From Monoplex corrugatus (lineage: Eukaryota; Mollusca; Gastropoda; Littorinimorpha; Ranellidae), in the NCBI GenBank assembly GCA_030674185.1, contig CM060306.1, forward strand, positions 48,139,132-48,203,131: 64,000 bases of DNA, in the 5' to 3' direction. How positions within the stretch are numbered: the stretch's first letter is position 1; the number at the start of each line of letters is the position of its first letter. Below the pieces are notes generated by a model. That model saw nothing but the letters and a program-made list of their open reading frames with translations, was not told the origin of the DNA and made no database searches. Position numbers and translations under genes: made by a program. Shown piece after piece: positions 21,501-45,439 of this stretch.

Positions 21501-24500
21501 CATAAGCAGGATGAACAAGCAAAATAAGTAACATAAACACATCACACACACACACACACACACACACACACACACACACACACACACACACACACACACA
21601 CACACACACACACACACACACACACACACACACACAATCACCACCACCCACCACCATCCCACCCCTACATCACCACCACTATCACAATCACACACACACA
21701 CACACACACACACACGGACACACACACACACACACACACACACACACACACACACACACACACACACACACACACACACACACACACACACACACACACA
21801 CACACACACACACAGAGTTGGTAACAGTCTGTCCACTGTCTCAGTCAGCTATGTTTAGAAATTCCCCCCTCCTTCTGACTGGCAGCCGTGATAATCTACT
21901 GCGCGTACCTATTCGTCTCAGTCACAAGCCTCTGTTGATACTTTGATGCCCCCATCCCCTGTAAACTCAAACGACACAGGTCTTGTGTTTGTCGCGTCAA
22001 CGAACTGACCATCGAAATGTGCAGTCCCAGTCACTGTCCGTCCTCTTCTCGCACCCCAGACCCACCCCTCCCCTGCCCCACCCCCCTTCCTGCTGTCCCT
22101 CTTCTTCGACCTGCACCCCTGCTTTCCAAAACTCTAGAACTTTTCCTGCTAAGTACTGGCACCCTCCCACCCTCCCCATCACTATCGCTTTCACTCTCAG
22201 CACTACTGACCTCTGTCTCCGCCGTGAATGCAGGATCAACAGTCGAGTCGTGACTAACTGACGTATCGCTGTTGTTGAAGTCGGTCAGGGCACGCGGTGC
22301 ACTTGTTCTGGCCACATCATCGCCATGAACATCACTGTCCTCGGTAAAATCATCCAGAGAATCAACTGATTCGATGTCAGAATAACTTTGGAGCACAAGT
22401 TGAACGGCAAGGGAAAGTGGAATGGAAGCGCGTCGTCTGCTTGAAATGTTCAGACCAGGCTCGGCGCTGTCGGCCATTTTCACTGTCGGAGTGTTTACGT
22501 AAGCGGGTTCCCCTGCTAAATGCTTTGTTTGCAAACTTTGCGAGGAACGTCACGGAAACTGCGTAGTATCTCATTATCGGGGAAGGATTGTAAATTGTGT
22601 ATCTGTGTTCTGAAAAATTCTAAAAATAGACTGTCAGAATATTCGGTCGCTGGCAAGGAGGATGACACAAAGAGCCGACCGAATATTCGGTCGCTGGCAC
22701 TGAACGGTTTAATGCTTCTGTTTGAAAATACTTATACACGTTGAAATGCTTTTGTTTAAAAATAATCACTTAGACTTTGAAAAGCACATAATCATAAACA
22801 AAAGCACACAAAGTTTGAACATTCACAGCTTACATTAGCAATGCCGCATGAAAAATTGAAATTGGGTTTTGAGTTAAAAGATTTATATGGTTTTGAAGAT
22901 ATTGTTGTTCTGAGTAAAAAGCAGTTTAAATTTTTCAGATCGGACTATTAGTTCACGAGATATTCGAATTTGAAGCGTCAAAAATTTCTTAAATTTTAGT
23001 ACCACGTTTTAGTGGGACAAAGAAGGACCAGCTGTCACAGAACAAACCCATCAAATGGCATGGTATGCTGATTTTGCTGGAAATGACATTCATTTTGTAA
23101 TTGTGAGAGACAGACAGGACCAAATGTCATAAAATTTTGATTGTTGATGTATTTTTGTATGCCGAATTGAATGAAACCATTATCGTAACTCTGTGACGAG
23201 CCATTTTTGTCTTATTACAGGAAACATGTGATATTTGGCATGTTTTATCTGTGTGGCATAAGGGTTTGTGGCAGGTGCTAAGAAAGTTTGGCATAGAGGA
23301 AGGTCTCGTCCAAACCATCCAGGCGCTGTATAACACTGCCAGCAGCGCAGTTCTCCTCAACAACCAGATAGGGGACTACTTCAAGACCACAGTTGGAGTC
23401 CGTCAAGGCTGCCTACTCTCTCCCGTGCTGTTCAATCTCTTCCTGGAGAACATCATGCGTGAAGCCCTCCATGACTTCCACTCCACTGTCTCCATCGGAG
23501 GAAGAACCATCAACAACCTGAGGTTCGCAGATGACATCGACCTGATGGGAGGCAGCAACGAAGAACTACAAGACCTGACCATGAGACTGGAAGAAAGTGC
23601 AGGTGCACACGGAATGGAAGTGAGCACAGAAAAAAGCAAAGTCCTGGTCAACAGCACAACCAACACCCATGCTGAAATCTACATGAACGGGCAACAGCTT
23701 GAAGAAGTGGACGCTTTCAAATACCTTGGCGCCACTCTCACCAAAGACGGTCGCTCTACAACAGAAATCAAGACCAGACTAGCGATCGCAACAGCAGCAA
23801 TGGTAAAGCTAAACAAGATCTGGAAGAACAGATCGGCTTTCCATTGAAGATGAAGCTGTACAAGTCCCTGGTGCTCCCCATCCTGCTGTATGGATGCGAG
23901 AGCTGGACCATGACGCAGAGACCACCAAGAGAATCCAGACGTTTGAAACTAAATGCTTCAGGCGCTTGCTCGGGATCTCTTGGCAAGATCGGAAGACAAA
24001 CGACTTTGTGTGGAGCCAAATAACAACACTCGCAGGCCCACAAGAACCCCTCCTGGCAACAGTCAAGAACAGGAAGCTGTCGTGGTTCGGGCATGTCACA
24101 CGCCACAACTCACTGCCCAAAACGGTCCTCCAGGGTACACTGGGAGGCGGCAGACGAAGGGGACGACAAGCCAAATGCTGGATGGACAACATCAAAGAAT
24201 GGACCAGGTTGGATGGCCCCACGCTGGTGCGACAGGCGGAGGACAGGACCGGTTGGCGACGGCTGGCTTCAAGAGTGTCTCTCATCTCTCCTCTACGCCC
24301 ATCACGGGCAGGAGAATGATGATGATATGTGACTGTTTTTCATTAATAATTGCCCATATTGTATTAATAACAGACAAAAATGAAGCTAGAAACAAAACAA
24401 GGATATATAATCATATCATGAGATAGATATAAAATCATTTTGCTCATCGTTCAAGTGTCTTATTACTGCAAATTAAACCAAAAAAGTCACGACTCGCTAC

Positions 24501-45439: not shown

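Follow-up and report, generated by a model that had tools for sequence, protein, structure and literature searches.

The window analysed here, a 64,000-nt stretch (C2:48139132-48203131) of a 3.02-Gb genome assembled in 7,621 contigs, contains two copies, A and B, of an element bounded at both ends by the 11-bp inverted repeat TAGCAATGCCG, each copy being enclosed by a short target duplication.

22829..22835, unstranded: left-hand target duplication of copy A, 7 bp, CTTACAT
22836..26628, plus strand: copy A, 3793 bp including a nested LINE fragment
22836..22846, plus strand: terminal inverted repeat TAGCAATGCCG at the left end of copy A, followed by CATGAAAAATTG
23255..24334, plus strand: later insertion into copy A, consisting of a LINE fragment that has a reverse-transcriptase frame and is missing from copy B
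26618..26628, minus strand: terminal inverted repeat at the right end of copy A, with inward neighbour TGCGAACCG
26629..26635, unstranded: right-hand target duplication of copy A, 7 bp, CTTACAT
41307..41313, unstranded: left-hand target duplication of copy B, 7 bp, TGACTAG
41314..44175, minus strand: copy B, 2862 bp, in the orientation opposite to A
41314..41324, plus strand: terminal inverted repeat of copy B that is the right end of the element, type CCGTGCGA
44165..44175, minus strand: terminal inverted repeat of copy B that is the left end of the element, type CCGCATGA
44176..44182, unstranded: right-hand target duplication of copy B, 7 bp, TGACTAG

Allowing up to one mismatch, TAGCAATGCCG matched the window four times, exactly at the ends of A and B, as compared with 0.45 matches expected, and none of 100 shuffled sequences reached four. 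These are the positions at which an earlier note, made from the sequence of the window, had placed the two copies and their inverted ends, and the perfect 7-bp repeats it had assigned to each, CTTACAT around A and TGACTAG around B, are likewise present. The copies are also colinear in opposite orientation, as the note had them, with 87-94% identity in four main aligned blocks and substitutions at 7.0% of the aligned letters. Copy A is the longer because of a 1.08-kb LINE fragment inside it; its surplus over copy B amounts to 1080 bp (23255-24334), and positions 23197-23847 of the window, overlapping this surplus, gave an RVT_1 match (E 2.4e-21).

Other features of the window were recorded alongside. 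Just outside copy A, a 172-aa Ser/Asp-rich frame on the minus strand (22031-22549) has no Pfam match and by eye resembles a 211-aa frame upstream of the piggyBac frame found in one of the copies described below (L017). A LINE at 54115-56474 contains overlapping RVT_1 reverse-transcriptase frames, and its protein is, by eye, near-identical to that of the LINE inserted in another copy (L009). A separate hAT-like element at 13304-18807 has the ends CAGGGCTTGTAATTGT / CAAGGCTTGTAATGGT and a 6-bp duplication, GTACAT; its frames (15747-18007) yield a weak match to the hAT dimerisation domain (PF05699, E 0.0032), below the cut-off. The Rfam scan, confined to the window, returned no family above threshold.

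Genome-wide, TAGCAATGCCG occurs 793 times in forward and 773 times in reverse orientation, against 26 and 34 occurrences of the reversed pattern used as a control. We sampled the first 100 places listed, all of them on contig C1 up to 143.2 Mb, and examined 99, leaving out C1:81408942; these 99 ends comprise 69 from L009-L040, eight from L041-L048, 20 from L056-L075 and two from L001-L002. The terminal inverted repeats proved to be common to dispersed copies of one family at 90 of the 99 examined places. The nine non-family places, for which the control predicts about three in 143 Mb, are not all due to chance, because two of them, L042 and L073, look like one other repeat. Among the 20 partnerless ends that were fetched, 14 belonged to the family and six did not. 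For the whole genome, the family is put at roughly 1,400-1,500 intact ends.

The length of the target duplication was examined in 35 copies whose two ends are both exact; 33 of these lie on C1 (first 143 Mb, ~5% of the genome), and the other two are those in the window. The duplication was a perfect 7 bp in 33 of the 35 and had a single mismatch in the other two (L023 and L029). A perfect 7-bp duplication also flanked all three copies in which one end was mutated (L041, L047 and L076), and no direct duplication was seen at L046, where one end is missing. Copies with other duplication lengths, which would have spoken against the family as first described, were looked for by testing flank matches of 2-12 bp, and no exact match of at least 8 bp was present in the counted C1 copies. 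One locus, L031, was left out of the count since both its listed ends are right ends and its flanks differ at five of seven positions. At this locus, two copies of the family face in opposite directions and are joined so that both right ends point outward, without a matching duplication; it is probably a rearranged or composite insertion.

At two loci, L025 and L028, a family copy is seated inside another family copy, which reveals the target as it was before insertion. When the interrupted outer copy of L025 is placed on the reference, its two parts share exactly 7 bp, and its flanks, once joined with a single ATAATAT, run colinear with the consensus. The corresponding overlap at L028 measures 8 bp, one base longer than the 7-mer GTTAATG. 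By eye, the joined flanks of L028 are also colinear with the consensus; they contain several substitutions, owing to which exact 12-mer look-ups of the joined flanks gave no match.

Target 7-mers were compiled, in the orientation of the element, from the 33 perfect copies together with L041 and L047. The most frequent bases at positions one to seven were C (26/35), T (22/35), T (16/35), A (20/35), A (13/35), A (22/35) and G (19/35). Taking assumed base frequencies as background, positions 1, 2, 4, 6 and 7 deviate clearly, position 3 weakly (p 0.04) and position 5 shows no departure (p 0.23), giving a motif of approximately CTWAWAG, a weak palindrome that nearly equals its reverse complement. 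No 7-mer recurs among the 33 perfect duplications, and the motif therefore reflects a preference, with no fixed site.

A MAFFT consensus of 29 copies is 2737 bp long, and that of a 28-copy cluster, outside which L032 falls, is 2745 bp. The consensus has the left end TAGCAATGCCGCATGAAAAATTG and the right end TAGCAATGCCGTGCGAACCGAAACG, and in both cases the 11 bp are followed by YRYGAA, making an inverted end of some 17 bp if read loosely. The earlier statement that the ends stop at 11 bp thus holds for the exact repeat, for which no longer version was found, and has to be relaxed for this looser shared extension. The longest stop-to-stop frame in the consensus is of 92 aa, and the family has no transposase coding capacity; together with the perfect duplications at 33 of 35 copies, this strongly supports the initial description of a non-autonomous element with a fixed 7-bp duplication. 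The interior contains GA and GT/CA microsatellites. In the 28 copies, the mean pairwise substitution was 4.6% and the largest 7.4%, and the family, judged by the mean for this sample, is not very old.

A larger, transposase-coding element with the same ends, which the earlier note had proposed to look for, did not turn up: the sampled ~5% of the genome yielded no coding element with TAGCAATGCCG ends, and no autonomous partner was seen at the 99 places examined, 20 of them having been read over ~500 bp only and two of these 20 followed further. Instead, the sampled long copies consist of the family element plus later insertions of other mobile elements. Thus, L009 (6691 bp) is the element with a LINE encoding endonuclease and reverse transcriptase, and L017 (7220 bp) contains a piggyBac frame (DDE_Tnp_1_7, E 6.4e-87) and another insert. 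L015 harbours a 2051-bp insert (949-2998) and L076 a 2.2-kb insert, both with CACGGCTGTTTAA inverted ends. In L024, the inserted sequence measures 0.76 kb, has CAGTAGA ends and is flanked by a duplicated TA; that of L027, of 0.6 kb, has the ends CTGAGCCTGGAA/CAGAGCCTGGAA and may be flanked by a 5-bp duplication. L077 contains a 0.8-kb hAT-like insert (about 270-1065) with CAGGGTTCGTACA ends, in which a zinc finger is weakly matched (zf-C2H2_12, E 0.0045, short of the cut-off); the duplication of this insert, GAATTA, is of 6 bp by eye, or of 8 bp if the last two bases of the end are counted in. L025 and L028 were dismissed as partners as well, their outer copies being interrupted by other family copies. 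The CACGGCTGTTTAA-ended inserts of L015 and L076 represent a family of ~2-2.2 kb, nested twice in the sampled copies and flanked by the 4-bp duplications TCCC and AGAT; no long frame was seen in these two inserts except low-complexity ones.

We also considered a second family sharing the identical 11 bp and continuing with other bases. TAGCAATGCCG followed by A/G occurs at 34+34 places (control, 16+14) and followed by YY at 14+16 places (control, 4+11), both being about twofold above the control. This candidate was rejected, as neither list contained plus/minus pairs within 20 kb. A literature search, which had Repbase and Dfam outside its scope, found no paper for TAGCAATG plus 'terminal inverted repeat'.

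We consider A and B, with a probability of about 0.93, to have inserted independently of each other and to belong to a single family of non-coding, non-autonomous DNA transposons of ~2.74 kb, which is best read as cut-and-paste. A transposase supplied by another element would recognise TAGCAATGCCG and the adjacent YRYGAA at both ends and would mobilise the element in trans, joining it to cuts staggered by 7 bp; insertion would favour palindromic targets near CTWAWAG, and gap repair would then create the 7-bp duplication. Mobilisation in trans is put forward here as inference, because no autonomous relative was found. The length of 2.7 kb is long for a passive derivative and counts against this explanation. 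Under the rule that the Repbase paper gives for non-autonomous elements, the duplications are of equal length and the termini align over positions 1-11 with at most one mismatch (PMC4455052).

As for the source of the transposase, the duplication length and the symmetry of the target lead us to guess, at slightly better than even odds, that the helper is an RNase-H-fold transposase of the hAT/P/MuDR group. The family fits this group, in which, with Kolobok included, duplications of 4-10 bp are described (PMC3706591). The earlier note had called a length of 7 bp uncommon, citing P-like and Dada elements, and uncommon it is, with the qualification that Galileo, a member of the P superfamily in Drosophila, is described as having mostly 7-bp duplications, with the palindromic sequence GTANTAC (PMC4168063). 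Dada, its other candidate, is disfavoured as the superfamily. The 6-7-bp duplications attributed to Dada (PMC3706591, PMC8869645) do match the 7 bp of the TAGCAATGCCG family, but in the original report Dada elements were found to lack terminal inverted repeats, and those with clear ends had inserted into genes for small RNAs (PMC3706591). The TAGCAATGCCG family differs in both of these defining features, having inverted repeats at its ends and a variety of targets.

A non-autonomous hAT element with an unusual 7-bp duplication is a tentative possibility. Non-autonomous hAT elements have short imperfect inverted ends starting with YA and no coding capacity, and the targets of hAT elements have T in second and A in second-to-last position; the TAGCAATGCCG family, with its short YA-type ends, its lack of coding capacity and its target, resembles them in all these respects. 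The usual end in hAT elements is YARNG, with which the initial TAG agrees and the fifth base does not, the family reading TAGCA, with A in place of the usual G. Their duplications are usually of 8 bp, as compared with 7 bp here, a value inside the range of 5-8 bp. Two hAT-like elements of this genome, that at 13304-18807 in the window and that inserted in L077, were read as having 6-bp duplications, and hAT duplication length may therefore vary in this genome. Against a hAT origin, none of the ten hAT matches listed on C1 below 143 Mb (150 of 511 candidates were scored) was, by eye, within 10 kb of a listed terminal repeat, and the one 564-aa hAT that was fetched, L078, lacks TAGCAATGCCG ends. 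In the Repbase paper, an example command for hAT families is annotated '7-bp TSD', with no family named (PMC4455052).

Mobilisation by a P-like transposase of this genome, which would make the family a non-autonomous, Galileo-like member of the P superfamily, is a doubtful alternative, even though its duplications are of the kind found there, 7-8 bp and palindromic. Galileo shares with the TAGCAATGCCG family a predominance of 7-bp duplications, a palindromic, AT-rich target preference, many non-coding copies and nesting, as described in PMC4168063 and PMC2775673. It differs in its target, GTANTAC as against CTWAWAG, and in its long inverted ends, compared with an 11-bp (loosely ~17-bp) end starting with TAG here. 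P-like transposases (PF21787) are abundant in the genome, with 150 matches among the 150 of 301 candidates that were scored. Seven P-like loci were fetched, and ends could be defined at four of them (L052-L055, from three families), L049-L051 giving none. One of the four, L055, has a 776-aa P-like frame and a 7-bp duplication, GTTGAAC, in a single copy. However, the ends start with CA at all four loci, unlike the TAG of this family, and the other three have 8-bp duplications, only lengths of 7 and 8 bp having been tried. Furthermore, TAGCAATGCCG was absent from all seven fetched P-like loci, and none of the five P matches listed on C1 below 143 Mb was, by eye, within 10 kb of a listed terminal repeat; among these, no link of a P transposase to the TAGCAATGCCG family was found. 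Separately, L053 (C1:4812300-4818900) belongs to a P-like family with an 863-aa frame, CACAGAA ends, many equal-scoring copies and, in the one copy read, an 8-bp duplication; intact P elements seem to have spread recently here.

That the family is a non-autonomous MuDR/MULE element seems rather improbable. MULE duplications are usually of ~9 bp and their inverted ends are longer than those seen here. In favour of this assignment, MuDR/MULE falls within a broad group of transposases that also takes in hAT, P and Dada (PMC9587614), and the range of 4-10 bp given for MuDR with its bacterial relative IS256 includes 7 bp (PMC10045372).

It is still less probable that the helper belongs to an undescribed transposase superfamily, one of the options raised in the earlier note, of which the TAGCAATGCCG family is the visible footprint. 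The exact 7-bp duplications, ends unlike those of the P and hAT elements defined here and a search that found no partner are consistent with it, but that search covered ~5% of the genome and the best candidates of two Pfam families, and makers of 7-bp duplications exist in known superfamilies. Nothing requires a new superfamily, and we give a similarly small chance to the family being the footprint of an undescribed cut-and-paste lineage within the hAT/P/MuDR group, with TAGCAATGCCG ends and strictly 7-bp CTWAWAG-type targets. Lastly, the location of A and B 15 kb apart in opposite orientation might suggest one segmental duplication or an inversion product, a reading that the earlier note had already argued against and that is hardly credible, because each copy has its own matching 7-mer, different from that of the other, when inversion by recombination would exchange them, as described for a Galileo inversion (PMC2775673), and because the LINE fragment is in A alone and 7% of the aligned letters differ.

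The observations of the earlier note are borne out, and its interpretation is supported in part. The two insertions in the window belong to a family that looks new but whose kind is well known; it is abundant and cleanly defined, and its duplication length is uncommon. It leaves the picture of transposon classes unchanged unless the helper proves new, and its exact ends and target motif provide a handle for recognising the missing transposase.
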